In this document: positions 6,582 through 33,984 of the stretch, piece after piece
How positions within the stretch are numbered: the first letter of the stretch is position 1
How the letters are laid out: every line of letters starts with the position of its first letter
IMG/VR virus record: IMGVR_UViG_3300048922_000073
Coordinates: 1-33,984 of that record
Origin: a virus
Length of the DNA: 33,984 bases
Direction: 5' to 3' (one strand)
The notes under the pieces: generated by a model
Seen by the model: only the letters and a program-made list of their open reading frames with translations
Told to the model about the DNA's origin: nothing
Databases searched by the model: none
Program-made: the position numbers and the translations under genes

Positions 6582-7553
6582 ATGATCCGCCCGTTCATCA
6601 AATGGGCAGGGGGTAAAACCCGTGTCCTCCCTGACCTGCTGCCGCATCTTCCTAAAGCCGACTGCCTGATCGAACCGTTCGTAGGCGGCGCATCGGTATT
6701 TCTGGCGACTGAATACCGCCGCTATGTGCTGGCTGATATCAACCCGGATCTTATTAACCTGTATCGGGAAGTCACCCGCTACCCGGACTTAGTGATCGAT
6801 GCGGCCCGCGAACTGTTCAACAGTAAGAACAGCCCGCAGGGTTACAACGAAGTCCGCGCCGCGTTCAATAAGCAGGTGGGTACGGTAAAAAGCGGTGGGT
6901 TGCGTTATGGCGCTGAAATGGCGTGCATTATGCGCGCTGCTCAATTCCTGTATCTGAATCGCCACGGTTATAACGGCTTATGCCGATACAGCCGGAAAAC
7001 CGGCTTTAACGTGCCGTTTGGCAAGTATAAGAGCGTCTACTTTCCTGAAAATGAAATCCGCCTGTTTGCCGAAAAGGCCAACGATACAAAGGCAATATTT
7101 CTTTGCGCGCCGTTCCAGCGTTCTCTACAGGTCGTCACGGGTGGCGATGTTCTCGTTTACTGCGATCCGCCTTACCTGCCTGAAAGCAAAACAGCCGATT
7201 TTACCCAATACCACACTGAACCATTCACGGAAGACAACCACCGCCAGTTAGTCCAGGCACTGCTGGAAGTTAACCGTAAGCATGGCGTGAAGGTCGTCAT
7301 TTCCAATAGCGACACCGAAGCCTCCCGCGCGATTTATCAGCCTTTCAAGATGCACGAAATAAGCGTGCAACGTTCCGTCAGCACTGACAAAGACAACCGC
7401 CAGAAGGCCAAAGAAGTGATCGGCGTGCTGCCTGTCTGCGACTGCTGCGGGCGTTACGACGGAGGTTGCCCTGATTGTGGCGCCGTGATGGGTGATGCGA
7501 CTTACAACGCGATGGTTGCGGCAGGCACGTTTGACGATCTGGAGGCGTTTTAA
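6582..7553 (+). CDS. dam: DNA adenine methylase (Dam) with C-terminal Cys cluster
   Basis: 323 residues. Motifs of the D12-class GATC methylases: FIKWAGGKTRVL (residues 5-16, the AdoMet site), IEPFVGGASVF (about 32-42) and catalytic DPPY at 195-198 (YCDPPYLP). The core normally ends near residue 275. Here it is followed by about 45 residues with C286, C288, C289, C296 and C299 (CDCCGRYDGGCPDCG), which look like a small zinc knuckle and then an acidic tail. Orphan phage Dam enzymes protect phage DNA from restriction or alter methylation-sensitive control; no restriction enzyme gene is adjacent. Phage 186 carries a Dam in the same region. The stop overlaps the next start. Confidence 0.93.
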   Translation: MIRPFIKWAGGKTRVLPDLLPHLPKADCLIEPFVGGASVFLATEYRRYVLADINPDLINLYREVTRYPDLVIDAARELFNSKNSPQGYNEVRAAFNKQVGTVKSGGLRYGAEMACIMRAAQFLYLNRHGYNGLCRYSRKTGFNVPFGKYKSVYFPENEIRLFAEKANDTKAIFLCAPFQRSLQVVTGGDVLVYCDPPYLPESKTADFTQYHTEPFTEDNHRQLVQALLEVNRKHGVKVVISNSDTEASRAIYQPFKMHEISVQRSVSTDKDNRQKAKEVIGVLPVCDCCGRYDGGCPDCGAVMGDATYNAMVAAGTFDDLEAF

Positions 7554-14773: not shown

Positions 14774-15820
14774 ATGCGTAATTCTACCCGTGAGTTGTTT
14801 GATGCGTATCTTGAGCGACAGGCTGAACTGAATCACATCAATAAGTCCCACGTAACAAAGTCGTTCAGCATTGATCCAAGCGTTGAGCAGACGCTTGAAG
14901 ACAAGGTGCAGCAGTCTTCAGAAATGTTGAAGCTGATTAGCATCTACGGCGTTAACGATCAGACCGGCGAAAAAATCGGTCTGGGTGTGAGCGGCCCGAT
15001 TTCCAGCACCAACAATTCCACCACCGATCGCCGTCAGCCTGTTTCCGTCACGGCGCTGGATTCGAACAAGTACACCTGTAATAAGGTGAACGCGGATACT
15101 TTCGCCTCTTATGCGCAGCTTGATGCGTGGGCTAAATTCCCGGATTTCCAGCAGCGTCTGAGCAATCAGATCATTCAGCGTATCGCGCTTGACCGCATCA
15201 TGATCGGCTTTAACGGAACCAGCTATGCGGATAAGTCCGACCGCAACGCTAACCCGCTTTTGCAGGATTGCGGTATCGGCTGGCTGCAACAGTACCGCGC
15301 GAATGCGCCGCAACGTGTCATGAAAGATATCACCGTGACCAGCCGCGACGATTCCAACCAGGTGATCGCTAAAGGTGATTACGGTAACTACGATTCGCTG
15401 GTTTATGACGCGGTTAACTCACTGATGGACGAGTGGTACAAAGATTCGCCCAATCTGGTGGTGATCACCGGTCGTAATCTGACGGTTAGCCGTTCGTTCC
15501 CGATCATCAACGCTGTCAGCACCAATAACCCGAACTCCGAAGCGCTGGCCGGTCAGTTGATCGCATCGCGTAAGACGATCGGCAACCTGCCTTCGTTCAT
15601 CGCGCCTTTCTTCCCTGATGGCAGCATGTTTATCACTTCGTGGGAAAACCTGTCGATTTACTGGCAGGAAGGTGCGCACCGCCGCCGCATTGTGGAAGAG
15701 CCGGAATATAACCGCGTATCTACCTACAGTTCGTCAAATGATGCCTATGTTGTTGAAGATTACGGCTTCGGCTGTCTGATCGAAGGCATTACCGCTGCAG
15801 AACCAGCACCGGCACCATAA
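14774..15820 (+). CDS. N: Major capsid protein gpN
   Basis: 348 residues (P2 N is 357). HK97-fold capsid family of P2: the N-terminus MRNSTRELFDAYLERQAELN is the segment trimmed by gpO in P2. Also seen are VSGPISSTNNS, the KFPDFQQRLSNQIIQRIALDR helix, and IEGITAAEP at the end. It forms the icosahedral shell around the scaffold. AGGA lies nine bases before the ATG. The gene is very similar in arrangement to P2 and intact. Confidence 0.96.
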   Translation: MRNSTRELFDAYLERQAELNHINKSHVTKSFSIDPSVEQTLEDKVQQSSEMLKLISIYGVNDQTGEKIGLGVSGPISSTNNSTTDRRQPVSVTALDSNKYTCNKVNADTFASYAQLDAWAKFPDFQQRLSNQIIQRIALDRIMIGFNGTSYADKSDRNANPLLQDCGIGWLQQYRANAPQRVMKDITVTSRDDSNQVIAKGDYGNYDSLVYDAVNSLMDEWYKDSPNLVVITGRNLTVSRSFPIINAVSTNNPNSEALAGQLIASRKTIGNLPSFIAPFFPDGSMFITSWENLSIYWQEGAHRRRIVEEPEYNRVSTYSSSNDAYVVEDYGFGCLIEGITAAEPAPAP

Positions 15821-15862
15821 ATCAGCGCAGGCCAGCTAACTGCTGGTCGCTTTGGGGGCATC

Positions 15863-16717
15863 ATGTTGACACCTGCTCAACAACATTTTAATCGCGTGAT
15901 GGCTGAACGCCGCCACGCCAGCCGTGAGCCGTCGCAGCTTGAAATGACGGCATACGAAACCATGCTTCACCGCCTGCGACTGGATAAAGCCCGTTTGAGC
16001 CGTGTCCAGTCCCAGAAGGCTAAAGCGGATTTAAAACGCGAACTCCTGCCGGACTATCAGCCGTGGATCGAAGGCGTACTTACGGCAGATTCCGGCCAGT
16101 CTGACGACGTGTTAACCACCGTCATGATCTGGTGTTGTGACTGCGGAAACATCGCCGAAGCCCTGCGCATTGGTCAGTACGTATTGCGCCATAAGTTGCC
16201 GATGCCGGATCAATATCGCCGCACCACCGCCACCGTACTGGTGGAAGAAATTTGCGATCCCGTCCTAGCTGCGTTCAAAGCTAATCCGGCTGTTGCGCCG
16301 GTCGCCGCTGACCTGCTGGAAGCTTTACGGGGCTTAACCCTGAACGAAGATATGCCGGATGAGGTGCGCTCAAAGCTGCTTAAGGCGCTGGGCTATACGC
16401 TGCGCCTGACTGACAACGTTGAATCGCTTACCGCTGCGGTTGAATACCTGCGCCAGGCGGCAGTGTTGAACCCGAAAAAAGCAGGCGTAACCCGTGATAT
16501 TGAGCTTCTGCAACGTGCGCTTAAGAAGTCCGGGCAATCTGCTGACGATGAAGGCGCAGACGGCAAGCCAGAAGCAAACAACACCGAAACCGAAACCCAG
16601 ACGGCAACGCCGCCAGCGCAGCCAAAAGCGAAGCGGGAAACCAAAAAGCCCGCCGCTAAAAGCAAGCCGGCAGCGAAGAAAAGAACCACGACAGCCCGCC
16701 AGAAGGCGGCGTCATAA
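15863..16717 (+). CDS. M: Terminase small (endonuclease) subunit gpM
   Basis: 284 residues versus 247 in P2. The N-terminal part MLTPAQQHFNRVMAERRHAS, then WIEGVLTADSGQSDDVLTTVMIWCCDCGN, is diagnostic of P2 gpM, which with gpP cuts cos. The excess length is a C-terminal tail (from about residue 222) rich in Lys, Ala, Pro and Thr (KKPAAKSKPAAKKRTTTARQ), histone-H1-like and probably disordered, which could add nonspecific DNA binding. Spaced 42 bases after N. Confidence 0.93.
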   Translation: MLTPAQQHFNRVMAERRHASREPSQLEMTAYETMLHRLRLDKARLSRVQSQKAKADLKRELLPDYQPWIEGVLTADSGQSDDVLTTVMIWCCDCGNIAEALRIGQYVLRHKLPMPDQYRRTTATVLVEEICDPVLAAFKANPAVAPVAADLLEALRGLTLNEDMPDEVRSKLLKALGYTLRLTDNVESLTAAVEYLRQAAVLNPKKAGVTRDIELLQRALKKSGQSADDEGADGKPEANNTETETQTATPPAQPKAKRETKKPAAKSKPAAKKRTTTARQKAAS

Positions 16718-16819
16718 CCGAACGTGCCCCCGCGCACCCAGGCGGCACGGCAGGCGAAAACAGGCAACGCCGCGTCTTCGTCCTGCCGTCCACCGCCTGA
16801 CTTATACGGAGTAGAGATC

Positions 16820-17308
16820 ATGAGTCTGGTAGCCACTGAGCCAGTACGGCCACCATCCGATCCAGTGCCTGATGATGGCGGCGCGAAAGTTGAAAGCCTG
16901 CCATTCTGGCCGGTCATTTCGCTGGCTGAACTACGCCGCGCGATGCGTCTTGATGGGCAGGTGACAACCGATCGCCTGATGTCGCGAACGGTGGAAGCGG
17001 TGGCCCATGTTAATGATCAGCTTTTCCTGTGGCGCCAGGTGCAGATTGATGCGGGCTATGAGTCATTGGCAGAAATTCCGGCCAGTCCGGTGAATGGCAC
17101 TTCCGTGAAGGTATGGCGCTATAAAAACGCCGTGTATTCACTCACTAAGGCGCTGTTGATTGAAGGCTACCGCGATATTGACACCACCAGTAAAGGCGAA
17201 GACCACGCGGCGGCATTGAGCACGCAGATCGATACGCTGTGGCGGGATGTGCGCTGGTCAATCCGTGATATCCAGGACGAAAGCCGGGGCCTGGCGGAGT
17301 TGGTGTAA
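16820..17308 (+). CDS. L: Head completion protein gpL
   Basis: 162 residues (P2 L is 169). The start ATG 16820 follows GGAGTAGAG; an upstream in-frame extension to 16724 is proline/Ser-rich junk with no ribosome site. Conserved features: FWPVISLAELRRAMRLDG, VAHVNDQLFLWR, GYRDIDTT and IRDIQDESRG. gpL completes the packaged head before tail joining. Its stop overlaps the X start (TAATG). Confidence 0.92.
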   Translation: MSLVATEPVRPPSDPVPDDGGAKVESLPFWPVISLAELRRAMRLDGQVTTDRLMSRTVEAVAHVNDQLFLWRQVQIDAGYESLAEIPASPVNGTSVKVWRYKNAVYSLTKALLIEGYRDIDTTSKGEDHAAALSTQIDTLWRDVRWSIRDIQDESRGLAELV

Positions 17309-17508
17309 TGAACGTTCAGGCGCAGCAAAACGACACGATCGACCTGCTTTGCTGGCGCTATTACGGCAGAACAGCAGGTGTTACCGAGGCGGTGATCGAT
17401 GCCAATAAGGGCATTTCCGCCGCCACTGAGTTGCAGGCCGGGCAGATTGTCTACCTGCCAGAGATCCAGCCGCCAGCCCAGCGGGAAACCGTGCAGCTAT
17501 GGGATTAA
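17308..17508 (+). CDS. X: Tail protein gpX (LysM-like)
   Basis: 66 residues (P2 X is 67). Starts in the L stop. YYGRTAGVTEAVIDANKG and LQAGQIVYLPE are the LysM-like repeat of P2 tail protein X, a small tail component. Intact. Confidence 0.92.
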   Translation: MNVQAQQNDTIDLLCWRYYGRTAGVTEAVIDANKGISAATELQAGQIVYLPEIQPPAQRETVQLWD

Positions 17509-17518
17509 GGGGGAGGGT

Positions 17519-17854
17519 ATGCACGACACACCACCGGGATTACTCGAACAAACAATGAAATGGATCGCTACTTATCTGCCGACACTGTTTGCGGCTGGTG
17601 CGGCGCTGAGTATTTCGGCGCTAATGAGCCTTTACGATGGGCAGTCTTTGCTTAAAACAGCCACCGGATCGCTGGTATGTGGGATTGTCACGCTTGCTGT
17701 GGCCGGTTCGCTGGAATATCTGGGGCTTCCGTCCAACGCGGTAACGTTCGTGGGCGCCTCAATCGGATTTATGGGCGCGGATAAAGTCCGCAACAAAGTT
17801 ACCGGGTTTATCGAAAACCGAATCGGAGGGATGAAAGGTGGAGATGAGCAATAA
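17519..17854 (+). CDS. Y: Holin, lambda/P21-type family
   Basis: 111 residues from ATG 17519, with GGGGGAGGG just upstream. Three hydrophobic helices at about residues 17-35, 47-66 and 72-88, then a charged cytosolic tail VRNKVTGFIENRIGGMKGG, matching the lambda-family holin class. It holds the P2 gene Y position but is longer than P2 Y (93). It forms the inner-membrane lesion that frees the endolysin. It overlaps the endolysin start by 11 bases. Confidence 0.88.
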   Translation: MHDTPPGLLEQTMKWIATYLPTLFAAGAALSISALMSLYDGQSLLKTATGSLVCGIVTLAVAGSLEYLGLPSNAVTFVGASIGFMGADKVRNKVTGFIENRIGGMKGGDEQ

Positions 17855-18278
17855 CGGCATCAACATGCTGAAAGGCTTTGAAGGGTGCAGGCTGACCGCT
17901 TATCAGGATTCTGTAGGCGTCTGGACGATCGGTTATGGATGGACTCAACCCGTCAACGGCGTGCCGGTTGGCAAGGGCATGACCATCACGCAGGAAACTG
18001 CCGATAGCCTGTTGCGTAGCGGTCTGGTGCAGTATGAAAAAGGCGTTACGGGGCTCGTTAAAGTCACCATCAATCAAAATCATTTCGATGCGCTGGTTGA
18101 TTTTGCCTACAACCTGGGCGTAAAGGCGCTGGAAGGTTCCACACTGCTGAAAAAGCTGAATGCTGGCGATTTCACCGGGGCTGCGGCTGAGTTTCCGAAA
18201 TGGAATAAAGCAGGCGGCAAGGTGTTGCCGGGGCTGGCTAAGCGCCGGGAAGCCGAGCGCACGTTATTTCTGGCCTGA
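17844..18278 (+). CDS. K: Endolysin, T4-type lysozyme (GH24)
   Basis: 144 residues from ATG 17844 (AAAGGTGGAG upstream). The catalytic triad spacing E13-8-D22-5-T28 (GFEGCRLTAYQDSVGVWTIGYG region) is that of T4 lysozyme E11/D20/T26. It cleaves the NAM-NAG bond of murein. There is no signal-anchor (SAR) segment, so it should need the upstream holin for release. It is followed by the 55-base repeat rather than directly by the spanin genes. Confidence 0.93.
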   Translation: MSNNGINMLKGFEGCRLTAYQDSVGVWTIGYGWTQPVNGVPVGKGMTITQETADSLLRSGLVQYEKGVTGLVKVTINQNHFDALVDFAYNLGVKALEGSTLLKKLNAGDFTGAAAEFPKWNKAGGKVLPGLAKRREAERTLFLA

Positions 18279-18287
18279 TCATTTTTA

Positions 18288-18343
18288 ACTGTGCTGGCCG
18301 TGCGTATCGAGCGCGGTCATTTTTGACAGTGCTCCAGCACGTC
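18288..18343 (+). repeat. 55-base intergenic repeat, copy 1
   Basis: Shares GTGCTGGCC-x-TGCGTATCGAG, then GTC-x-TTTTT, then GTGCT-xx-AGCACG with 25402-25456, about 80 per cent identical by eye. Ends in an inverted repeat GTGCTCCAGCAC. Lies in the 101-base gap between endolysin and Rz. Unknown function. Confidence 0.7.
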
Positions 18344-18379
18344 CGGTATTGACGGTGTGAGCTGGCGAGAGGTTTTGAA

Positions 18380-20468: not shown

Positions 20469-21103
20469 ACAACTGGTTAGCCAGCGCTGCCGCGCAGCTT
20501 TCGCCGGGCCACCGCCGCAAGCTGACGCGTAACGTTGCAATCGGGTTGCGTAAGCGCCAGCAAAAGCGTATCGCGAGCCAGAAGAACCCCAGCGGTGAAA
20601 GCTATCAGGCTCGCCGCCGAAAAATCCTTCGTACCCAGGGCGGTATTAAATTTCTCTGGGCAAAAGATGATGGTACGCCAGAAGTCAGGGAGCTTCGCAA
20701 CTGGCGCCGTAGTGGCGGACGATCGCAAGTCGGAGGGGATAAACGAAAAATTACGGGTTATGACGTTGACCGAAATGAAATACGAACGTTCTTTCGCCGT
20801 GATATCCAGCGCTATATTGAAATCAATCTCAACCAGTCCAAGCAGAACCGCACCAGAAAGGATCCGATGTTCCGCAAGCTGCGCACCGCACGCTTTCTTA
20901 AGGCTTACGGTACGGGCGGCATGGCAGTGGTTGGCTTTCAGGGACATACCGCCGAAATCGCCAGCGTTCACCAGTACGGTGAAGTCGATAACGTGGTGCC
21001 GGGTGCCCGTGCACGTTACCCGGTGCGTGAACTCCTGGGCATGACCGAGGGGGATTTAGACTGGCTGGCCGATACTGTTGTTGCCTTCATGCAAGAGATT
21101 TGA
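20429..21103 (+). CDS. S: Tail completion / virion morphogenesis protein gpS
   Basis: 224 residues, longer than P2 S (150). The N-terminus LFQQLDNWLASAAAQLSPGHRRKLTRNVA and the C-terminus TAEIASVHQYGEVDNV, YPVRELLGMTEGDL match the phage virion morphogenesis family. The extra length is a central segment (about 70-145) rich in Arg/Lys. It overlaps R. The last gene before the V late promoter. Confidence 0.9.
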   Translation: MAGQQTDPLFQQLDNWLASAAAQLSPGHRRKLTRNVAIGLRKRQQKRIASQKNPSGESYQARRRKILRTQGGIKFLWAKDDGTPEVRELRNWRRSGGRSQVGGDKRKITGYDVDRNEIRTFFRRDIQRYIEINLNQSKQNRTRKDPMFRKLRTARFLKAYGTGGMAVVGFQGHTAEIASVHQYGEVDNVVPGARARYPVRELLGMTEGDLDWLADTVVAFMQEI

Positions 21104-23157: not shown

Positions 23158-23764
23158 TGACCTGTTACCACCCAGCGCCAGCCGAATGGAGCGAGTCGCA
23201 GCCCGCGTCTGCGCGTCGTTGGGGGAAGTGCCCGTGCCGCTTCGCCAGTTGTGGAACCCGTGGACGTGTCGGGCTGATCTGTTGCCCTATCTGGCGTGGG
23301 CCTTCTCCGTTGATCGCTGGGATGAGGCCTGGCCGATCAGCACGAAGCGTAAGGCGGTATCCGATGCGTTCTACCTGCATAAGTACAAGGGTACAACGGG
23401 CGCCATGCGACGGGTTGTTGAGCCGTTCGGCTTCTTCATTCGGGTTAACGAGTGGTGGAACATTGATACCGCACCGGGCACCTTCACGCTGGATATTGGC
23501 GTGGAAGACCAGGGCATTAGTGAAGAAACCTATCAGGAACTTGAACGCCTGATCGCCGATGTGAAGCCGTGCAGCCGTCATATGCTGGGAATGTCTCTTC
23601 ACCTGCAAACAACCGGAGATTTGTATATCGGCGCGGGCAGTTATTCCGGCGATACGCTGACCGTATACCCGTATTTCCCTGAAACCATAGCCGTGGGCGG
23701 TGATGATTACACCGGGGCGGCAATCCATTTAATTGACACCGTGGAGATCGCAAGTGGCGACTAA
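23150..23764 (+). CDS. I: Tail protein gpI (baseplate wedge)
   Basis: 204 residues from ATG 23150, inside the J stop; a GTG three codons earlier is less likely. LLPPSASRMERVAARV, LLPYLAWAFSVDRWDEAWP and KYKGTTGAMRRVVEPFGF are signatures of P2 gpI, which links baseplate and fibre. Slightly longer than P2 I (176), with a C-terminal extension. Overlaps H by 11 bases. Confidence 0.95.
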   Translation: MSNDLLPPSASRMERVAARVCASLGEVPVPLRQLWNPWTCRADLLPYLAWAFSVDRWDEAWPISTKRKAVSDAFYLHKYKGTTGAMRRVVEPFGFFIRVNEWWNIDTAPGTFTLDIGVEDQGISEETYQELERLIADVKPCSRHMLGMSLHLQTTGDLYIGAGSYSGDTLTVYPYFPETIAVGGDDYTGAAIHLIDTVEIASGD

Positions 23765-24776
23765 ATATTATGCCGTGCTAACCAATGTGGGCGCGGCGAA
23801 ACTGGCAAATGCCACGGCATTGGGTGCGCAGGTTGAGATCACCCAGATGGCTGTAGGCGATGGTAACGGCGCATTGCCGACGCCGAAACCGGCACAAACG
23901 GCGCTGATTCATGAGCTGCGACGCGCACCGCTCAATAGTCTGAGTATTGACCCGAACAACGCCAACCAGATTATTGCCGAACAGGTGATCCCCGAAGACG
24001 TGGGCGGGTGGTGGATCCGTGAAATTGGCCTGTTTGATAAATACGGCGATATGATTGCCGTAGCAAACTGTGCGGAAACCTATAAACCGCAGTTGCAGGA
24101 GGGGAGCGGACGCGTGCAGGTTGTGCGCATGATCCTGATCGTTAGCAGCACCGCCGCCGTGACGCTAAAAATTGATCCTTCGGTAGTGCTGGCAACCCGC
24201 CAGTATGTTGATGATCAGATAATCCAGGTGAAAACCTATGTTGATCAGCAACTGGCTGCGCACGTTGCTGCGGCTGATCCGCATACGCAATATTTGCTTG
24301 AGTCGGATATTGATAAATATTTCCCTGTGGGTTTCCCGCTTCCGTGGCCGCAGGCAACGCCGCCAGGTGGTTGGTTTAAATGCAATGGTGCAACGTTCGA
24401 TAAGGTCAAGTATCCGAAGCTGGCGACGGTTTACCCTTCTGGCGTATTACCAGATTTGCGCGGTGAGTTTTTGAGAGGTTGGGATGACGGGAGAGGGGTT
24501 GATGTTGGGCGTGCAATCATATCATCGCAGGGTGATGCCATTCGAAATATCATAGGCAAGTTTGGTAATTGTCAGTTATTTCCTAGCATTTATCACGATG
24601 GTGCATTTGCCGGTACTGTTGAAAATGTTTCACAAACTTTTGGCTTAACTCTCGCGCCTTCAGAACAAGGTAATGGGGTTATAAACTTTAGCTTTGATGC
24701 ATCTAAAATCGTTCCTGTTGCCAGTGAAAACCGGCCGCGCAACGTCGCATTTAACTACATTGTGAGGGCTGCATAG
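23754..24776 (+). CDS. H: Tail fibre gpH, short form with tail-collar tip
   Basis: 340 residues, half of P2 H (669). The start is GTG 23754 (GGAG eight bases upstream), giving KYYAVLTNVGAAKLANATALG, the conserved P2 H head, followed by the gpJ/gpI-binding domain to about residue 150. There is then a short coiled shaft and a collar-type domain FPLPWPQATPPGGWFKCNG. The last about 90 codons (from 24500) are distinctly AT-richer than the rest, indicating that the receptor-binding tip was exchanged. It ends SENRPRNVAFNYIVRAA, normal for collar fibres, so not a truncation. Confidence 0.9.
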   Translation: MATKYYAVLTNVGAAKLANATALGAQVEITQMAVGDGNGALPTPKPAQTALIHELRRAPLNSLSIDPNNANQIIAEQVIPEDVGGWWIREIGLFDKYGDMIAVANCAETYKPQLQEGSGRVQVVRMILIVSSTAAVTLKIDPSVVLATRQYVDDQIIQVKTYVDQQLAAHVAAADPHTQYLLESDIDKYFPVGFPLPWPQATPPGGWFKCNGATFDKVKYPKLATVYPSGVLPDLRGEFLRGWDDGRGVDVGRAIISSQGDAIRNIIGKFGNCQLFPSIYHDGAFAGTVENVSQTFGLTLAPSEQGNGVINFSFDASKIVPVASENRPRNVAFNYIVRAA

Positions 24777-25372
24777 TGGCACAGGCAAAATTAAACGGCG
24801 AAATGATTGCCACGGTGGCGGGTGATGTGACCGTGTTTAACTACGATGGTAAGACACGCGAATATCTTTCTTCATCAATTGAATATCTGGCGGTAGGCGT
24901 AGGACTTCCAGCAAACTCCTGTACCGATGCACCTGGCGAAGTTAAAGCAGGTTCGGCCATTTGCCGGACGGAAGATTTTACCGCCTGGGAATACGTCGCC
25001 GATCATCGTGGTGAAACGGTGTACAGCACTGAAACAGGCGAATCGTTGATCGTTTCTTTGCCTGGCGATTACCCAGAAGGCACCACTATGCTGGCACCTT
25101 CGACACCTTACGATACGTGGAACGGTAGCGAGTGGGTGACGGATACGGAAGCGCAGCACGCGGCGGACGTGGAAGCGGCGGAGCAACAGAAAGCTGCGCT
25201 ACTGCTTGAGGCGCAGGCAACGATCAGTCTCTGGCAGACGGAGCTACAGTTAGGCATTATCAGCAATGAAGATAAAGCCAGCCTGATTTCCTGGGTGAAC
25301 TACATCAAAGCCTTGCAGGCGGTGGACACCTCGAAAGCGCCGGATATCACCTGGCCGGATAAGCCGGAATAA
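24776..25372 (+). CDS. G: Tail fibre assembly chaperone gpG
   Basis: 198 residues (P2 G is 175). GTG start overlapping the H stop (TAGTG). The C-terminal half has YDTWNGSEWVTDTEAQHAAD, then LISWVNYIKALQAVD and DITWPDKPE, the tail-fibre-assembly signature. It should fold the adjacent H tip. It is the last gene of the rightward V-G operon. Confidence 0.92.
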   Translation: MAQAKLNGEMIATVAGDVTVFNYDGKTREYLSSSIEYLAVGVGLPANSCTDAPGEVKAGSAICRTEDFTAWEYVADHRGETVYSTETGESLIVSLPGDYPEGTTMLAPSTPYDTWNGSEWVTDTEAQHAADVEAAEQQKAALLLEAQATISLWQTELQLGIISNEDKASLISWVNYIKALQAVDTSKAPDITWPDKPE

Positions 25373-25401
25373 GTTTTCATTCCGGCACGCATGGCCGGTT
25401 C

Positions 25402-25456
25402 TAACCGTGCTGGCCATGCGTATCGAGTACAGTCGTTTTTAACGGTGCTGTAGCAC
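25402..25456 (+). repeat. 55-base intergenic repeat, copy 2
   Basis: Second copy of the element at 18288-18343 (GTGCTGGCC-x-TGCGTATCGAG ... GTGCTGTAGCACG). Located in the gap between G and the inverted U gene. The 5' CCGTGCT can also pair with the 3' AGCACGG. Confidence 0.7.
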
Positions 25457-25486
25457 GGTCAGTTATGGCAGTGCCGCCAGGAGGGG

Positions 25487-25510
25487 AAGCGGGCAAAGGC
25501 CCGCTTTTCT
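25487..25510 (+). terminator. Terminator between G and the convergent U
   Basis: AAGCGGGC-aaag-GCCCGCTT perfect eight-base stem followed by TTCTT rightward; it serves the V-G transcript and touches the U stop. The leftward side has no T-run beyond TT. Confidence 0.8.
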
Positions 25511-25959
25511 TATATCGAAAGGTTGGTTTTCACCAGAGAGAAGAGATCGTCGGTGGTCGTTTCGGCCAGCTTTTCCCGTATGTCCTCGCTTACCCGTTTC
25601 AGGTTGAGCGTAAAATCAATTTTCTTTGCCTTCCCGTCCTTAAAAAACTCCGTCCGGTTTTGTGTGATCTGCTCAATGACATACATGCCGTAGATCTTGC
25701 CCGTGCCTTCTATCAGGGGCCACGGGCGCCCGGAAAAAGCCATAGTTTCCAGCATGAAAAGCGACACATCACCGCCGCTTATTTCGGAGTACAGCGTGCC
25801 GCTGAGTACGATAGGTTCTTCATCTGCGCCAATGAACTGATAGCGCGGGGATTTCCCCACGCGATCGTTTTTGACGTGCCGCCAGGAGTTGGTTTTATTC
25901 GCACTCTGGTAAGGCGTGGTTTGCAGTGAAAAGGGGAACATCCCCAGAATCATCATCAT
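25510..25959 (-). CDS. U: Tail terminator protein gpU
   Basis: 149 residues (P2 U is 159). MILGMFPFSLQTTPYQS, then YQFIGADEEPIVLSGTLYSEISGG, WPLIEGTGKIYGMYVIE and KKIDFTLNLKRV are the P2 gpU signature. It caps the tail tube end. It is on the minus strand and ends the leftward FI-U operon; in P2 this gene points the same way as G and D and is followed by D. Confidence 0.95.
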   Translation of the reverse strand: MMMILGMFPFSLQTTPYQSANKTNSWRHVKNDRVGKSPRYQFIGADEEPIVLSGTLYSEISGGDVSLFMLETMAFSGRPWPLIEGTGKIYGMYVIEQITQNRTEFFKDGKAKKIDFTLNLKRVSEDIREKLAETTTDDLFSLVKTNLSI

Positions 25960-25969
25960 GATATTGCCC

Positions 25970-28915
25970 TTAGACGTGATCGGTCAGTTGGGAGCGCTTG
26001 CGTCGGTCGGCCTGCTGCTTCGCTAACGCAAGTTCTTCGCGCACGCGCCTGATAATGCTTTCTTCATCCAGTTTCTGGCCGCTAAAGTCGAAGCTGAGGT
26101 TATATACATCGCCACCCGGCGCAGGCATCAGCGCAGCGACGGAAGCCGCAGACGGCGACGCCGAAACGGGCACCCGTGCGGCGGGCTTCTCAACCTGCCA
26201 CGGCGTAACGGAAGCGATCAGCGATCCGGCCTGCTGCGTCACCCAATCCGTAAGGGATGGTAGCTGGTGCTGCGCCTGCTTAAGCGGTTCCGAATATCCG
26301 CCCCGGATCGGGATATAGGGCTGCTTATTCTTGAAGACGATTTCGCCGGGCCCGTCTTTCTTCTCCGTGGTATTGGTGGCGATTTTGTCCAGGCTGCTGC
26401 TCATCTTCGGCACGATGTTGGCCGGACCCTTGAGCGAGTTAATTAAGCTTTCCTGTTTTTTCTGCTGGTCAATGGCCTGCTGTTGCTTCTGGTTGGTTTT
26501 CTTCTGTTGATCGTCTTTCGGCGACCAGTTCCAACCCTTTTTAACCATTTTCTTTTGCTGCGGATCCCACTCCCAGACAACAGGGTCTTTGTGCATACTC
26601 TCCGCAGCTTGCTGCGCTGCTTTTGTTGCGTCGGGGATGGCGCCGAGTTTCTCAAGTATCCATCCAATCCCGTTAGCGACGGCTTGAATAGGTAGCGTCA
26701 GTGCGCTAATTGCGGCCCCTACAACCTTGCCGAACGTTTCTCCTGCACTGGTGCAAGATGCCAGCGCTTCACTGGAAAACTGGATCGGTTCCAGCAGTTT
26801 GGTAAACCATTCCCAGACGCCACTGATCGCGTTGCCGATACTGTCAAAAATCGGGGCCAGTGGTGCAAAGACGGCATTAAAAGCCTGCGTGATTGGTTGA
26901 AGGCCAGCCATCAGGCCGGTAAAGAACCCGCTGAAAAATGCCTTGATCGGTTGCCAGAATTTAATGACGGCCACTGCTACCGCAGCAAAGAGCGCAATCA
27001 GCCCCCAGACGGGCGCAGAAATGCCAGCCAGTAGAGTGATAAGCGGGCCGAATACCATGCGACCGACGCTTAGCAATGACTGCATAGGCGAGCCAGCAAG
27101 CCACTGGAAAGCACCACCCAGGCGCATTACTCCGCCAGTCAGCCGCGCTATTCCTCCTTCCCCGGCCAACGTGGTGAAGCTGAGGCGAACAAGTGCCATC
27201 GGTACCAGCACTGCGCCAATGGACAGCATCAGACCACCCACGACAACCAGCAACGCGCCTATGGCTGCGGTGATTTTCATGATTGAACCAACCAGCGACG
27301 GGTTTGCCTCAACCCAGCGGCGGACGCTGCCAACCACCTTACTGACGGTAAGCATGATATCCATCAGCGGTTCGCGGAGCGTTTCACCTGCTGAACTGAA
27401 TGCGTTAACCGCGCCGGTTTTGGTCAGTTGCCACTGAGCAGAAAGGGAAGCTTTGTTGATGTCAGATTCACGATTCATAGAGCCTTTAGCGGCTGCGCCC
27501 TGCGTCAGTTCTATCTGGCGGCGTAGTTCGCGCAGGTTGTTCGCAAGTTTCTGCGCATCATCGCCGAACTCTTTACCGAAAATCTGGGTAAGGTTGGCTA
27601 CCTGCTGATCCGGGGCCAGTTTTTTGGACGCTTCCAGCACTGAAATGATTGTGCCCATCGCGTCCACTGACATGCTCTTCTGGACTTTTTCGGCGCTGAG
27701 GCCGAGGGCGTCCAGACCTTGCATAAAATTTTTGCCCTGAACCGTAGCGATTGATAGTTCGCGCACCATTGCATTGGTGGCGCTGGCGGCAACTTCCGCA
27801 GGGGTGCCGAGCGTCAGAAAAGTGGAACCTAGCGCGGCGGCTTGCTTGTAATCCAGTTGGCTGGCAAGCCCGCCAACGCGCTGGAGCACGTCGATAATAT
27901 CGGAGCCTTTCGACTTCGCGTTATCGTCCAGGTAGTTTATGGCGTCGCCCAACTGTTCAATATTCTGGGTAGGGATTTTATACAGCCCTGCAATTTTACC
28001 CAGGCTTTCAGAAAGCTGATCGGCGGGTAGTTCAAAGGCTACCGAAGCCTTTGCCGCCATGCTGGCAAAAGCCAGCAGATCGGCTTTTTGCTTTTGCCAC
28101 GGATCATCGCTGTTTGCGACGCCCATACGCGCGCCGCCTTCGACCAGGGCGGCATAGTCAACAGCACCGTTAGCCATTGGCAGCTTTTCGCTGGCATCCA
28201 TGATCGCCCTTTGCATTTCTTCATACTGCGGGGTGCGGTTGCCGCTGTCGTCACGCAAGCCGTTTACCTGTTTGGCTACGCCCTTCATTGCGTCTTCAAG
28301 GCTGCTGTAGGATTTCACCGCAGCGGCGACAGGTACGAGGGTTGCCGCGCCCACGGCGGCAGTTTTCATCCCCCCGCTCATCATCTTTTCGCCGGTTTCT
28401 TTGGCACGGCTGTAACGGGCCTGCGCCTGGTTAACGGCGTCAAGCCGTCGCTGCTGTTCGGCAAGCTGGCGGTTGTATTGCGCGGTGCGCTGGTTGATCT
28501 GTTCCGTCGCCCGGCTGGCGCTGCTGATCGCAATGCCTTCGCTGTAGAAGCTGGCGCGCAACTGGTTAAGCTGCGTCTGCTCGCCTTTCTGCTGCTGGGT
28601 TAACTGGCGTATGGCTGCACGTTGCTGATTGAGGGCGGCAACCTGTTCGGCGCTGCGCTGGCGTAACGGGCCATAAGCCGCCGTCATTTGCCGGGCCTGT
28701 TCTTTCGCCTGGGCCAGTTGTTCGGTAGTTTTTTTATTGGCTGCGGTGAGGCGGTCAAAGCTGGTTGCCTGACGCTCAAGCCCTTGAATGCTGGTTTTGG
28801 TCTGGTTGATTTGAGACGCCAACGCGGCGGCACTCTGGCGAGCCGCGTTGACAGGGCGGGACATATTATTCAGGGCGCTGAATGCCACCCTGATATTTAA
28901 ATTGCGGTCTGCCAT
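25970..28915 (-). CDS. T: Tail tape measure protein gpT
   Basis: 981 residues (P2 T is 815). The N-terminal 190 residues form long Gln/Ala-rich coiled coils. The region from about 210 (TAAVGAATLVPVAAA) holds the conserved tape-measure core. Hydrophobic helices lie around residues 545-580 and 620-655. A Lys/Gln-rich low-complexity part (about 800-840) precedes the tail. The protein sets tail length and is ejected with DNA. Its ATG follows the E+E' stop directly (TAAATG), as in P2. Confidence 0.95.
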   Translation of the reverse strand: MADRNLNIRVAFSALNNMSRPVNAARQSAAALASQINQTKTSIQGLERQATSFDRLTAANKKTTEQLAQAKEQARQMTAAYGPLRQRSAEQVAALNQQRAAIRQLTQQQKGEQTQLNQLRASFYSEGIAISSASRATEQINQRTAQYNRQLAEQQRRLDAVNQAQARYSRAKETGEKMMSGGMKTAAVGAATLVPVAAAVKSYSSLEDAMKGVAKQVNGLRDDSGNRTPQYEEMQRAIMDASEKLPMANGAVDYAALVEGGARMGVANSDDPWQKQKADLLAFASMAAKASVAFELPADQLSESLGKIAGLYKIPTQNIEQLGDAINYLDDNAKSKGSDIIDVLQRVGGLASQLDYKQAAALGSTFLTLGTPAEVAASATNAMVRELSIATVQGKNFMQGLDALGLSAEKVQKSMSVDAMGTIISVLEASKKLAPDQQVANLTQIFGKEFGDDAQKLANNLRELRRQIELTQGAAAKGSMNRESDINKASLSAQWQLTKTGAVNAFSSAGETLREPLMDIMLTVSKVVGSVRRWVEANPSLVGSIMKITAAIGALLVVVGGLMLSIGAVLVPMALVRLSFTTLAGEGGIARLTGGVMRLGGAFQWLAGSPMQSLLSVGRMVFGPLITLLAGISAPVWGLIALFAAVAVAVIKFWQPIKAFFSGFFTGLMAGLQPITQAFNAVFAPLAPIFDSIGNAISGVWEWFTKLLEPIQFSSEALASCTSAGETFGKVVGAAISALTLPIQAVANGIGWILEKLGAIPDATKAAQQAAESMHKDPVVWEWDPQQKKMVKKGWNWSPKDDQQKKTNQKQQQAIDQQKKQESLINSLKGPANIVPKMSSSLDKIATNTTEKKDGPGEIVFKNKQPYIPIRGGYSEPLKQAQHQLPSLTDWVTQQAGSLIASVTPWQVEKPAARVPVSASPSAASVAALMPAPGGDVYNLSFDFSGQKLDEESIIRRVREELALAKQQADRRKRSQLTDHV

Positions 28916-29376
28916 TTAGTGATCTCCACCACTGCGCGCAGCCGCCTGATCACGCCATAACAGTATTTCCTGTACCGTCATGGCGTCCATCTCTACCGGC
29001 CGCCAGTGGAATATGACGGCTATATCTGCCATCAGGTCTTCTATGCATTCGCAGGGGCATCGGATGATTCGTTGCCCGTATCCGTCGCGGTCAGATCCGA
29101 AGAGGGTTGCAAAAAATCAACCACCGCGTTGGCTAACTGGCAAAAATCCCAGGTATCCATACGGGCAATCTCATCGGCTGTTAATGCCGGAGCGGTAACG
29201 CGGGGCAGCAGAATAACCAGCGCGTCATAGTTGGACGTCAGCACGTCATAGGCTTTTAAGCCGCGCAGTGATCCAGCCTGTTTAAGCACGGAAGTGATCG
29301 CCACTTCGGTGATTTTGGTATTACCGCGCGTAATAGGGGCGGTAAGAGTAACGGTGTATTCTTTGGTCTTGCTCAT
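28916..29376 (-). CDS. E': Tail assembly chaperone E+E' (made by -1 frameshift)
   Basis: The first 89 residues come from E; then a -1 shift at T-TTT-TTG (29116-29110) adds 64 residues. The E' part ends with VIFHWRPVEMDAMTVQEILLWRDQ, the expected E' signature. Total 153 residues (P2 E+E' is 142). The fusion is the tail assembly chaperone that binds the tape measure, analogous to lambda gpGT. The new frame stops exactly at the T start. Confidence 0.9.
29041..29376 (-). CDS. E: Tail protein gpE
   Basis: 111 residues without frameshift. ATG 29376. YTVTLTAPITRGNTKITEV and MDTWDFCQLANAVVDFL match P2 gpE (91). It is the major product of the E/E' pair and works with the rarer fusion in tail assembly. 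The last 22 residues (after the slip site) are the normal-frame tail. Confidence 0.92.
   Translation of the reverse strand: MSKTKEYTVTLTAPITRGNTKITEVAITSVLKQAGSLRGLKAYDVLTSNYDALVILLPRVTAPALTADEIARMDTWDFCQLANAVVDFLQPSSDLTATDTGNESSDAPANA
29110..29116 (-). other. Programmed -1 ribosomal frameshift site in E
   Basis: Heptamer T-TTT-TTG in phase with the E frame (codon GAT TTT TTG; TTG is codon 89). It is the same type of heptamer reported for P2 E/E'. No strong stem-loop just downstream was checked. Confidence 0.85.
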
Positions 29377-29390
29377 GGTGCCGGGTTTCC

Positions 29391-29906
29391 TTATAGGCCG
29401 ATGTTAGCGCGGTGTTTTTCCAGCACATCCACACCGGCAACTTTGTAGATCATGTTGAGCACATCAACTTCAATAATCTCTTCGCCGTTGATGGTCAGCT
29501 TGTAATAGGTGTTTTTCAGGGTGTACTTATGCGAAGTGTCATCCCCGACTTTTGCTGAACCGGGATCCAGTTCAGTGAAGCGGCCACGCGTCTGGATTTC
29601 GCACGGTACAGCGTCGCCGGTCGCATCGTCCTGATAAGAGCCAGCAAAACGTGTTTGCATCCCGTCCGCAGTGGTAACGCCCCATTTTTTCAGCAATCCG
29701 GCATCCAGACCGCCAAGCGTGATATCCATATCCAGGGCGCCAGCGTCGAAGCCCAGATCCACCGCAACCGAACCCGGCATACCGCCCGCCTGGTAGTCTT
29801 CGGTTTTTTTGGTGATTTTGGCGGGGGTTATTTCCGGCACCATGCCGAAGTAGTTATCCCCGTCAAAGAACATATTGAAATATTTAAGTTTCTTAGGCAG
29901 TGCCAT
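29391..29906 (-). CDS. FII: Major tail tube protein gpFII
   Basis: 171 residues (P2 FII is 172). ALPKKLKYFNMFFDGDNY at the N-terminus, then EITPAKITKKTEDYQAGGMPGSV and LEKHRANIGL at the C-terminus are diagnostic. Forms the inner tail tube. Twelve bases after the sheath gene. Confidence 0.96.
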   Translation of the reverse strand: MALPKKLKYFNMFFDGDNYFGMVPEITPAKITKKTEDYQAGGMPGSVAVDLGFDAGALDMDITLGGLDAGLLKKWGVTTADGMQTRFAGSYQDDATGDAVPCEIQTRGRFTELDPGSAKVGDDTSHKYTLKNTYYKLTINGEEIIEVDVLNMIYKVAGVDVLEKHRANIGL

Positions 29907-29918
29907 AAGCGCCCCCGG

Positions 29919-31112
29919 TTAGTTATTCACTGCGCTGGAAAACGTAGCGAAATATTCGTCGGTGAACTCCTGTACCAGGCTGAGATTTTCCAGCGGTGGA
30001 ACAGGGGTGTAGTTGTACTTAATGGTCAGTTGACCATTGCGCAGGGTTTCCGAGGTATTCGGTTCCGGGTCATACCAGCAGCGGGCGCCCAGCAGCTTGC
30101 CAGCCGTCACATATGAGGTCAGCTTCTTATTGATGCCGTCCACAATGTCCTTAACCAGCGACGGGGTAAGCGGTTTATCAACATAGGCGAAATGGGCTTC
30201 GGCGACGGTATCCGCAACGATCTGCGCAGTTCGGGTATAGCTTTCGAAGATATACGTTTCCGCGTCGCAGGTGCGCGATCCCCAGATGCGGTAGCCGTCC
30301 TGCTTGATCAGCGTGGTAACGCCTGCTGCGTTCAGTTCGTCGGCGTCGGTATCGGTGCCCTGCAACGTGAAATAGATATCCCGATCCATCCCCAGCACGT
30401 TATTAACGGGCACGTTGGAAATGGTTTTATGCCAGCCCTGCGTTGCGTCGATTTTGGCGCGCATCCCAACCGCATGGGCACCCACGGGCACGGTGGCATT
30501 CGCCTCGGCGTTGGTGTCGTAGCAGATGAAATTAGGCCAGATAACCATCATTTCACGCTGGGAGAACTGTTCGCGGTATTCCTTCACTTCGGCGATGGTG
30601 TTGCAGCCGTTCGCTGCCACGTAAGCAAACGCGCGCAGCTTTTCGGCAATGACGCCGAGTTGTGCGGCTACCGCTTCCGTATCAAGCCCAGGAACAGCCA
30701 GTACACGCGGGCGCACGCCTACGCGCATTTCGGCAGACAGCAGCGCGTACATGCCGGTAAAGCGCCCGTTTGCATCGGTGCCGCCAATAACCAGTTGATC
30801 CTGTGTCTGTGCGGTGCCGCCTTCTGGTGGAACAATTTTTGACGCATCGGCAACGCGGATCACAATGGTTTGCGGGCTGGTCTGGTCTGAAATCGCTTTC
30901 AGGGTGGTAAACAGGGTGCCGGTTTTGCCTGCTTTGCCCAGCATGTTAGCCACGCGGGTGATCAGTACAGGGGTATCCAGCGGGAACGCGTCTTCGTCCG
31001 CATCATCAGCGGTGCAGACAACGCCGATCACCGCCGAATCAATGTCGGTGATCATCGTGCTAAGGTCGGTGGTTTCCGTGACGGTTACACCGTGATGGTA
31101 GTTAGTGGCCAT
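29919..31112 (-). CDS. FI: Tail sheath protein gpFI
   Basis: 397 residues (P2 FI is 396). YHHGVTVTETTDLSTMITD, RVADASKIVPPEGG, VLAVPGLDTEAVAAQLG and the C-terminal AHFAYVDKPLTPSLVKDIVDGIN are typical of P2 contractile sheath. First gene of the leftward tail operon, with a late promoter directly upstream. Confidence 0.96.
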   Translation of the reverse strand: MATNYHHGVTVTETTDLSTMITDIDSAVIGVVCTADDADEDAFPLDTPVLITRVANMLGKAGKTGTLFTTLKAISDQTSPQTIVIRVADASKIVPPEGGTAQTQDQLVIGGTDANGRFTGMYALLSAEMRVGVRPRVLAVPGLDTEAVAAQLGVIAEKLRAFAYVAANGCNTIAEVKEYREQFSQREMMVIWPNFICYDTNAEANATVPVGAHAVGMRAKIDATQGWHKTISNVPVNNVLGMDRDIYFTLQGTDTDADELNAAGVTTLIKQDGYRIWGSRTCDAETYIFESYTRTAQIVADTVAEAHFAYVDKPLTPSLVKDIVDGINKKLTSYVTAGKLLGARCWYDPEPNTSETLRNGQLTIKYNYTPVPPLENLSLVQEFTDEYFATFSSAVNN

Positions 31113-31144
31113 GTATTTGCCTCGCCAGTTTAATGACTGCGAAT

Positions 31145-31202
31145 ATCATTGCGGCAATGGCAGGCTGATGCGATGAATAAGGGTTGTCAGCAATCTGCAA
31201 CA
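31145..31202 (-). promoter_or_regulatory. Leftward late promoter of the FI-U operon
   Basis: The dyad TGT-N12-ACA (31202-31185) read leftward, with AATGAT at 31150-31145: the same hexamer at the same 52-base offset as the O promoter. The start would be near 31139. It shares the activator site with the D promoter. Confidence 0.7.
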
Positions 31203-31245
31203 ATGACGGGGCGTTGTTCATGCGCGCGCGCGTGGCGACGATGTA
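31185..31245 (+). promoter_or_regulatory. Rightward late promoter of D
   Basis: TGT-N12-ACA at 31185-31202, ACAA-N10-TTGTT (31200-31218), an 11-base GC-alternating tract (31222-31232), and a -10-like GATGTA at 31240-31245. Layout as in the V and P promoters, but two bases longer. A TATGAT at 31252 is a less likely alternative. Confidence 0.6.
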
Positions 31246-31269
31246 CCCCATTATGATGAAGGGGTTGAT

Positions 31270-32388
31270 ATGGACACGACAGAAAACCGATATTCGCCGC
31301 GCCCGGCGTTCAGTATTGAAATTGAAGGTAATCAGCTTACGGCGCTGGATAACCGGCTGATCTCCCTTTCCCTGACAGATAACCGGGGCTTTGAAGCGGA
31401 CACGCTGGATCTGACTCTGGATGATGCAGACGGGCAGGTAGCATTACCATCACGCGGCGCAAAGATATCGGTGGCGCTGGGCTGGGATAATGATCCATTG
31501 GTTTTTAAGGGCGTCTATACGGTTGACGAGATCGGACACGCTGGCCCGCCTGACCAGCTAACGATCAGTGCCAGAAGCGCAGATTTCCGCGATACCTTCA
31601 ACGTGAAGAGGGAATATAGCTGGCACGATATTACCGTGGGGGATGTGGTCGCCAGCATTGCCAGCCGCTACGATCTGCGTGCGGGTGTCAGCGAAGAACT
31701 GGCGAAGATTGAGATAGACCACGCCGATCAGACGAGTGAATCAGATATCAGTTTCTTAACGCGCATGGCCGAAATGCTGGGCGCGGTGGCAACCATTAAA
31801 AACGGTATGCTTCTGTTTATCACGCCGGGCAAGGGAGTGACGCAAAGCGGCAAGCCGTTGCCGGTGATCGAGATCGTCCGGTCAAGCGGTGATAAACATC
31901 GGTTTAACGTAGCTGACCGCGACGCGTACACGGGCGTAACTGCATACTGGCTTGATCTCAACTTTGGCAAAAAACCATCCACTACCGTGAAGAAAACCAC
32001 CCGCAGACGACGAACCAGCCAGGCCAAAAAGAAAGAGCCCGCATCAAGCAAAAAAGAGGGTGATTATCTGGCCGGGGCCGAAGGTAACGTTTTTGTTATC
32101 CGTAAAACCTTCAAGACGGAAAAGGCGGCGCAGCGTGCCGCTGCGGCTAAGTGGCGGGAGTTGCAGCGTGGAGCGGCGACGTTCAGTATCACCCTGGCGC
32201 GTGGCCGCGCAGATTTGTACCCGGAACAGCCCGCCAGCGTCTACGGCTTTAAGTCCACGATTGACAGTGGGAACTGGACGATAACGCGGTGCGTTCACGA
32301 TATTGGCGGGGGAGGGTTTACCACGTCGCTGGAACTGGAAGTAAAAATCGACGACTGGACAGCGGAGAGTGACGATTCAACGCCTTAA
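31270..32388 (+). CDS. D: Tail protein gpD
   Basis: 372 residues (P2 D is 387). RPAFSIEIEGNQLTALDNRLISLSLTDN, FEADTLDLTLDD, and QTSESDISFLTRMAEMLGA mark the phage late-control protein D / baseplate hub family, related to the T4 gp27 hub. Residues about 240-265 are a very basic insert (KKTTRRRRTSQAKKK, KKEG) in the central linker. RBS GAAGGGG before ATG 31270. In P2 D ends the F-D operon; here it has its own promoter, read away from U. Confidence 0.93.
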   Translation: MDTTENRYSPRPAFSIEIEGNQLTALDNRLISLSLTDNRGFEADTLDLTLDDADGQVALPSRGAKISVALGWDNDPLVFKGVYTVDEIGHAGPPDQLTISARSADFRDTFNVKREYSWHDITVGDVVASIASRYDLRAGVSEELAKIEIDHADQTSESDISFLTRMAEMLGAVATIKNGMLLFITPGKGVTQSGKPLPVIEIVRSSGDKHRFNVADRDAYTGVTAYWLDLNFGKKPSTTVKKTTRRRRTSQAKKKEPASSKKEGDYLAGAEGNVFVIRKTFKTEKAAQRAAAAKWRELQRGAATFSITLARGRADLYPEQPASVYGFKSTIDSGNWTITRCVHDIGGGGFTTSLELEVKIDDWTAESDDSTP

Positions 32389-32398
32389 GCGTTATACT
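32369..32398 (+). promoter_or_regulatory. Possible ogr promoter
   Basis: GTGACG (32369), 18-base spacer, TATACT (32393-32398), within and just after the D stop. P2 ogr likewise has a promoter of its own besides read-through from D. Moderate match only. Confidence 0.4.
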
Positions 32399-32436
32399 TG
32401 CGTTGATATTAACCAGTCCTGAAAGGAGGCCCGCGT

Positions 32437-32679
32437 ATGGCAATGCGCTGTCCTCGCTGCCGTGCAATAGCAAAAACCAGAACCAGCGTTGAGCTGAGTT
32501 TGCTTGTACGGCGCAGCTATCACCAGTGTCAAAATATGTTGTGCGGGTACTGTTTTACCAGCATGACGGAAATAGACGGTTCACTAAACCAGACCCAGCC
32601 AGCGCCCGGCGCGATGGTTCCGCAAGATGTTTTTCCCCGAAGCCATCATGGAGAGGATCAGCTAAGTTTGGTTTTATAG
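32437..32679 (+). CDS. ogr: Late transcription activator Ogr (Delta-like zinc finger)
   Basis: 80 residues (P2 Ogr is 72). C5-x2-C8 (CPRC) and C31-x4-C36 (CQNMLC) make the Ogr zinc site, with RTSVELSLLVRRSYHQCQN between; C39 is extra. Ogr binds TGT-N12-ACA near -55 and contacts RNA polymerase alpha to turn on late genes; three such sites exist here. AAAGGAGG precedes the ATG. It is the last phage gene before the terminator and attR. Confidence 0.93.
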   Translation: MAMRCPRCRAIAKTRTSVELSLLVRRSYHQCQNMLCGYCFTSMTEIDGSLNQTQPAPGAMVPQDVFPRSHHGEDQLSLVL

Positions 32680-32690
32680 CAGCCGCAGAT

Positions 32691-32717
32691 AAGCCCCAGA
32701 ACGTTGGGGCTTTTTTT
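32691..32717 (+). terminator. ogr terminator
   Basis: AAGCCCCA-gaacgt-TGGGGCTT perfect eight-base stem and a T7 run, 12 bases after the ogr stop. Confidence 0.92.
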
Positions 32718-32761
32718 ATGTGTAGCCAATTTGTGGTCGCGAAATATTGATACTTGATTAA

Positions 32762-32774
32762 TATCAATAGGTTA
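32762..32774 (+). promoter_or_regulatory. IHF-binding consensus, right attachment arm
   Basis: TATCAATAGGTTA fits WATCAANNNNTTR exactly, 14 bases inside the attR core. It lies at the edge of an inverted repeat ATTGATA-N9-TATCAAT. Mirrors the left-arm site. Confidence 0.55.
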
Positions 32775-32787
32775 CGTGTGGTATAGT

Positions 32788-32803
32788 GGGGCGCTTGCGC
32801 CCC
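32788..32803. other. attR: attR core (probable)
   Basis: GGGGCGCTTGCGCCCC, the counterpart of 215-230. Its right flank GTTTGCTTT is host DNA and completes the palindrome with the left flank AAAAC of attL. The yeaD stop is 27 bases beyond. Confidence 0.7.
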
Positions 32804-32829
32804 GTTTGCTTTAGCGTGGTGCAGGGAAA

Positions 32830-33714
32830 TTATCGCTTAACAATGCGAATCGTCTGCCCTAAACGAGACGGTTTTTCCTCACTCGCTTTTTGCGGGTTGC
32901 TCACGCAAGCGGTTTCCACGCAGACAAACGTTTTGTAGCCATCATCCGTCATGTCGGCCATGCTGACGGACAGCGCAGGGCCCGGGTTCCAGCCCACCAC
33001 GTCGCTGTGATGATGATGGACCACTTCAATGCCGCGGTTCAGGGCGCCATCGTGGATCACGCTGCACGCTTCCGGGTGCAGGTAAACGCGATCGGTACGG
33101 TCAGGGAATGCCTGAACGCCGTCACTCAGTTTGCCTTCTTTCGCGTTATCGACTTTATCAATATAGGTATCGCCCAGGCCGCTCACCTTCACGGCGCTGA
33201 TATCACCCACGTTGAAATAGGTGTGAAGGGCAGAGGTGGTTTCGAACTCGCCGTGAGCTTCCAGTTCGATTTCACAGGTTTTACCCAGCTTGAAGCGGGC
33301 ATACAGGGTGAAATCGTACGGCCAGAGGGCGCGGGTTTCATCATTAGCCTGCAGCTCAAAGGTCAGCACTGCGCCGTTGTCATCTTCGTTATGCGCTTTC
33401 AGCGTCCACTGCTGGTTACGGGCAAAACCGTGAGACGGCAAACCCGGCTGTGCGGACGGGCCGAACCACGGCCAGCAGATCGGTACGCCACCGCGGATTG
33501 CGGCCCCTTTTTTGAAAGAGGTCGCATCGCTCAGCCATAAGCCTTCAGCTTCGCCTTCCGGTTTCCAGGAGAGCAGGTGCGCGCCGTTCAGCGCCACGGA
33601 CGCTTTCACGCGAGGATGGTCAACGACGATAACGTCGGCACCATCAATCTGACGGCGGGAGAGCACAGGGGTAAGTTGTTCGACTACCGGAAGTGCAAAA
33701 ATTTTATTAATCAT
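32830..33714 (-). CDS. yeaD: Glucose-6-phosphate 1-epimerase YeaD
   Basis: 294 residues, the same length as E. coli YeaD. Galactose-mutarotase-like fold: HLLSWKPEGEAEGLWLSDA, GGVPICWPWFGPSA, PSHGFARNQQW (catalytic His region), and HTYFNVGDISAVKVSGLGD; the C-terminal VCVETACVSNPQ carries the catalytic Glu. It interconverts alpha and beta glucose-6-phosphate. Host gene, downstream of and co-directional with gapA, intact despite the insertion 27 bases beyond its stop. Confidence 0.95.
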   Translation of the reverse strand: MINKIFALPVVEQLTPVLSRRQIDGADVIVVDHPRVKASVALNGAHLLSWKPEGEAEGLWLSDATSFKKGAAIRGGVPICWPWFGPSAQPGLPSHGFARNQQWTLKAHNEDDNGAVLTFELQANDETRALWPYDFTLYARFKLGKTCEIELEAHGEFETTSALHTYFNVGDISAVKVSGLGDTYIDKVDNAKEGKLSDGVQAFPDRTDRVYLHPEACSVIHDGALNRGIEVVHHHHSDVVGWNPGPALSVSMADMTDDGYKTFVCVETACVSNPQKASEEKPSRLGQTIRIVKR

Positions 33715-33741
33715 TAAGCAATCCTCTGTCTAAAAACAATA

Positions 33742-33766
33742 AAAAAGGCGACCGAAGTCGCCTTTT
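33742..33766 (-). terminator. Terminator between gapA and yeaD
   Basis: AAAAGGCGAC-TTCG-GTCGCCTTTT on the minus strand, a strong stem with UUCG loop and T-run. It ends most gapA transcription. Confidence 0.9.
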
Positions 33767-33788
33767 TGGATCAAGCACTCATCTCAAC

Positions 33789-33984
<196 letters not shown>

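Follow-up and report, generated by a model that had tools for sequence, protein, structure and literature searches.

The late promoters of P2 depend on the activator Ogr, which binds at a site of the TGT-N12-ACA type located ~55 bp ahead of the start. In P2 itself (record NC_001895) the tail genes from FI to D lie on one strand, as a preliminary description of the locus studied here had assumed, and a single annotated activator site is common to the divergent O and P operons (pO/pP). The P2 order is also found in ENT90, Fels-2 and Yersinia phage vB_YenM_42.18, as well as in phage 186, in which the genes, D included, run one way. A second order is annotated in the GenBank records of phages SEN4/5, P88, phiT5282H, 3LV2017 and Shae_phiSM, where the segment U-T-E-FII-FI reads opposite to V-W-J-I-H-G and D, and a fragment of phage KSP20 has FI and D in divergent orientation. 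We describe a locus with this second order and consider how it may have arisen.

Architecture of the inverted tail block

The window, i.e., the whole stretch of 33,984 nucleotides that was analysed (IMG/VR record IMGVR_UViG_3300048922_000073), carries a P2-like prophage and shares the orientations of these inverted-block phages, with U-T-E-FII-FI turned against both V-W-J-I-H-G and D. The preliminary description, made from the sequence alone, had FI-FII-E-T-U reading leftward and G, D and ogr rightward, with all five block genes intact and in the internal order of P2; the ORF coordinates and the matches to P2-type Pfam families agree with this (Table 1). The window accordingly departs from the classic P2 late operon, in which FI to D are co-directional and form one transcript unit from pF. 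The slippery heptamer T TTT TTG lies in frame in E at 29116-29110, and the -1 frame beyond it is open, so the E/E' frameshift is kept, as annotated in P2. A terminator had also been placed where G and U converge; this holds up for rightward transcription of G, where the hairpin has a U-rich tail, and not for leftward transcription of U, where the hairpin is followed by UUCCCC. Past ogr there is an aldose 1-epimerase gene (32830-33714) that is probably host flank, and the two window ends, compared in a search for att sites, share no exact repeat of 10 bp or longer.

Table 1. Features of the inverted tail block and its neighbours in the window.
Feature	Position	Strand	Basis
H, tail-collar fibre; left neighbour, in P2 orientation	23733..24776	+	Pfam PF12571, PF07484
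G, tail fibre assembly protein	24776..25372	+	Pfam PF02413
Terminator-like hairpin in the G/U convergence gap	25482..25511	+	fold of both strands
U, tail protein; left end of inverted block	25510..25959	-	Pfam PF06995 (GpU); tree
T, tape measure protein	25970..28915	-	Pfam PF10145
E' extension, -1 frame after slippery T TTT TTG	28916..29110	-	open frame, sequence
E, tail assembly chaperone	29041..29376	-	Pfam PF10109
FII, tail tube	29391..29906	-	Pfam PF04985
FI, tail sheath; right end of inverted block	29919..31112	-	Pfam PF04984 + PF17482; tree
Ogr-type dyad TTGT-N12-ACAA in the FI-D gap	31184..31203	.	motif search, conservation
D, baseplate hub; outside block, divergent from FI	31270..32388	+	Pfam PF05954 (GPD); tree
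ogr, late-gene activator	32437..32679	+	Pfam PF04606

The gap between G and U also contains a copy of a 60–100 bp hairpin element that recurs between genes in inverted-block phages (25377-25470 and 18271-18365 in the window; at 7523, 15006 and 31271 in locus L001, and at 8339 in L086). The element is carried by ~70 inverted-block loci and by none of the P2-type loci, and copies from Senquatrovirus and Novemvirus members, whose sheaths are ~57% identical, can be up to ~90% identical. Salmonella phage SI7 and its kin also carry the element, close to gene A. We rejected it as the agent of the inversion, given that the window copies at 18271 and 25377 are direct repeats and that none lies in the FI-D gap, and as a host repeat, since in five host genomes there was one copy, located beside the prophage sheath block. 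The element may be mobile, a terminator or a recombination linker.

Orientation was called by tblastn with marker genes in 538 sequences that came from sheath-protein scans of viral and genome contigs, together with the window and named phages, and that included a few repeats of one phage. The inverted order was found at 320 sheath loci (219 full, 101 partial) and the P2 order at 199 (134 full, 65 partial), counts that are not frequencies, because named sheath genes were the seeds of the viral sample; the remaining loci were either too short (15) or rearranged (2). The several hundred inverted loci come from many Enterobacterales genera and include isolated phages and complete chromosomes (e.g., of Yersinia aleksiciae and Providencia rettgeri), which bears out the earlier suggestion of a settled alternative architecture. 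Among 248 genomes drawn evenly from one taxonomic order, with the pairing of sheath and D hits judged by eye from coordinates, two genomes, including the seed genome, had the inverted order, and ~20 strong sheath loci had the P2 order; the inverted form is thus a widespread minority.

Two prophages in the sample have unusual arrangements near the fibre genes. In a degraded E. coli prophage (L129, 1-18425) D, FI and U are turned as a whole relative to V-W-J-I; we did not accept this as a third gene order, as the break lies inside the fibre gene H and points to a fibre-linked rearrangement or misassembly. In a Trabulsiella prophage (L397) gene I and the start of the fibre gene (15785-17529) are reversed from the usual direction beside an invertase gene, and a second, partial invertase is located at 21000.

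The activator site between FI and D

The dyad in the FI-D gap of the window, TTGTCAGCAATCTGCAACAA, has its centre ~82 bp from the start of FI and ~76 bp from that of D. The pF site in the P2 record is centred 83 bp from FI, and in inverted phages, too, a box lies ~80 bp from FI, within the FI-D gap. TGT-N12-ACA occurs six times in the window versus 6.5 expected, which is without significance, so the argument for the box rests on its placement and conservation. Among the inverted representatives, the exact dyad was present in 16 of 26 FI-D gaps (shuffled mean 1.1), and for 25 inverted and 32 P2-type representatives it was possible to align a box located ~78–88 bp upstream of FI. The FI-proximal half of the site, which is the distal half for D, reads ACA or AGA in 23 of the 25 inverted and is often CCA in P2-type representatives, a comparison that ignores relatedness; in addition, the D-side logo of the inverted phages keeps GCGACAACaAaaagc and further positions ~30–45 bp from the box centre. 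We found no clear box in one inverted locus (L404) or in several P2-type phages (ENT90, other Pantoea/Erwinia). In the inverted phages, no clear signal came from boxes upstream of V, which were taken as a unidirectional control.

Based on these comparisons, we infer that one activator site serves two divergent late promoters, those of FI and D: being a near-palindrome, the site could also support a second late promoter, directed toward D. The preliminary description had FI and D share a divergent late promoter, and for this putative promoter the placement and conservation of the box provide comparative support. It is also conceivable that D is expressed by read-through or from a promoter of its own that is unrelated to the box, the box being for FI only. 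Consistent with this, the D half-site is changed in the P88/phiT5282H branch, whose members have AGA for ACA and so are off consensus on the D side, and there is a rightward sigma-70-like match at 31122-31149, although such matches occur at chance level in the region. However, the FI-proximal half is better kept in the inverted than in the P2-type phages, and the conserved D-side sequence stands at a fixed distance from the box; we therefore regard a box-independent D as unlikely.

Origin and exchange of the block

Our trees were quick and unrooted, that of the sheath protein FI comprising 76 representatives of which 26 were inverted. All 26 fell on one side of a single FI branch (SH-aLRT 100); the inverted loci were likewise split off by one branch in the U tree (SH-aLRT 99) and, despite the position of D outside the inverted block, by one branch in the D tree (SH-aLRT 100). 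FI, U and D of the window are all within the inverted branch, and sheath identity between loci of opposite orientation reaches 59% at most. The preliminary description had proposed looking among relatives for a stable inverted clade, and for these three genes the inverted loci do lie together on one side of a branch. A single, ancient and fixed inversion is the simplest reading of the one-branch splits and of the low sheath identity across orientations, and we conclude that the inverted block is an old, stable layout, neither damage nor a switch. As the P2 order is present in prophages of Burkholderia, Ralstonia and Pseudomonas, the ancestor was probably P2-like, with the direction of change taken from these outgroups.

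We propose that in an ancestral P2-like phage the segment from pF through FI-FII-E-T-U would have been inverted once, with one breakpoint in the gap between G and FI and the other where U meets D. Having moved with FI, the Ogr site would have come to lie between FI and D, where its near-palindromic form could have driven a second late promoter toward D, as at the O and P promoters of P2; D would still have been expressed, and the phage would have remained viable. The block from U to D may since have been kept as one orientation-fixed cassette that spread through Enterobacterales phages and, exchanged as a whole, was combined with different baseplate and fibre modules. A single inversion, an Ogr site serving both sides and an exchanged U-to-D cassette together are our best explanation of the data (probability roughly 0.8).

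Alternatively, the inversion could have arisen independently more than once, in several P2-like lineages. In favour of this, the tree of the baseplate gene J divides the inverted phages into several groups, with eight label changes, four to five of them forced by the best supported branches, and a single inverted clade is rejected for J (p-AU 3.5e-5). In contrast, the trees of FI and U, from the block, and of its partner D each have the inverted phages behind a single branch, and module exchange is the better account of the J splits, which makes repeated origin improbable. For instance, two Morganella prophages, one inverted (L387) and one with the P2 order (L449), are 92% and 87% identical in J and I, respectively, and share a baseplate/fibre segment (17007-19680 in L387, 4740-7416 in L449) with 82% DNA identity over 2.7 kb, whereas their FI, D and U proteins are only 54%, 49% and 41% identical; such a shared segment beside diverged FI, D and U is indicative of module exchange. 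Since J disagrees with the split in FI, U and D, orientation follows the U-to-D block rather than the rest of the phage. We speculate, at about even odds, that the U-to-D genes with a two-way Ogr promoter constitute a self-contained cassette produced by one inversion, in which a palindromic site rescued the stranded D, and that this cassette moves between phages of both layouts; if so, orientation belongs to the cassette and not to the phage lineage.

A programmed, reversible flip of the tail block, like that of fibre segments under Gin-type invertases, is very improbable. Gin-type invertase genes do lie at the boundary of the fibre genes and the tail block in 60 inverted and 50 P2-type loci; however, the G-U gap of the window contains no invertase gene, and of the two marks of a programmed inversion, inverted repeats at the ends and both orientations among near-identical relatives, the first is missing at the block flanks in the window and the second throughout, as orientation never differs between loci with more than 59% sheath identity. 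The lack of flanking repeats and of near relatives in the opposite orientation indicates that the block does not switch. As these invertase genes sit at the fibre/tail edge of 110 loci of both layouts, a past invertase error is nevertheless a possible cause of the inversion. To an assembly error hiding a true P2 orientation, or a dead rearrangement in one contig, we give next to no credence: the window is a single viral contig, but all its genes are intact, and the relatives, which the preliminary description had named as a possible refutation, show the order of the window hundreds of times, in independent contigs, closed chromosomes and isolated phages.

Comparison with named phages

The preliminary description had also allowed that the order might already be well described, and in part it is: the architecture of the window is known, being annotated in public genomes of named phages, and its novelty is limited to that extent. 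We found no prior description of the single-origin, cassette and promoter readings. In the terms searched, the inversion is not discussed in the papers on SEN4/5 (PMC5261728), P88 (PMC5285337), Serratia PP4 (PMC9826266), a C. rodentium prophage (PMC6456863) or an Enterobacter prophage (PMC12851794), and within a partial coverage of the literature no text on the inversion was found for SEN4/5, P88 or P2-like gene order. The locus suggests a route by which half of a tail operon can be reversed without loss of a needed gene, namely via a palindromic activator site able to act on the gene at its other side as well. In addition, block orientation provides a clean marker by which the exchange of cassettes among P2-like phages of enteric bacteria can be followed, and annotators should be aware that Peduoviridae do not all have the P2 gene order.

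The closest known phages are Salmonella phages SEN4 and SEN5 (Senquatrovirus, Peduoviridae), which have the gene order and orientations of the window and a similar G-U gap. SEN5, an isolated phage, matches the window with 94% DNA identity over 76% of the query (23500-33900), and most structural proteins of SEN4/5 are 85–99% identical to those of the window; the two differ from it in the fibre region and in G (37% identity). Escherichia phage P88 and Citrobacter phage Shae_phiSM (Xuanwuvirus) share the inverted U to FI and the divergent D, but have sheaths only ~56% identical to that of the window, a Gin-type invertase beside U and the box half-site AGA. Enterobacter phage phiT5282H (Novemvirus) and Klebsiella phage 3LV2017 (Reginaelenavirus) also have the inverted block and divergent D, and represent separate branches within the inverted group. 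P2, 186 and Fels-2 have the same genes as the window in the same internal order, with an Ogr/B-type box ~80 bp upstream of FI; unlike the window, they have a co-directional FI to D operon in which D directly follows U.
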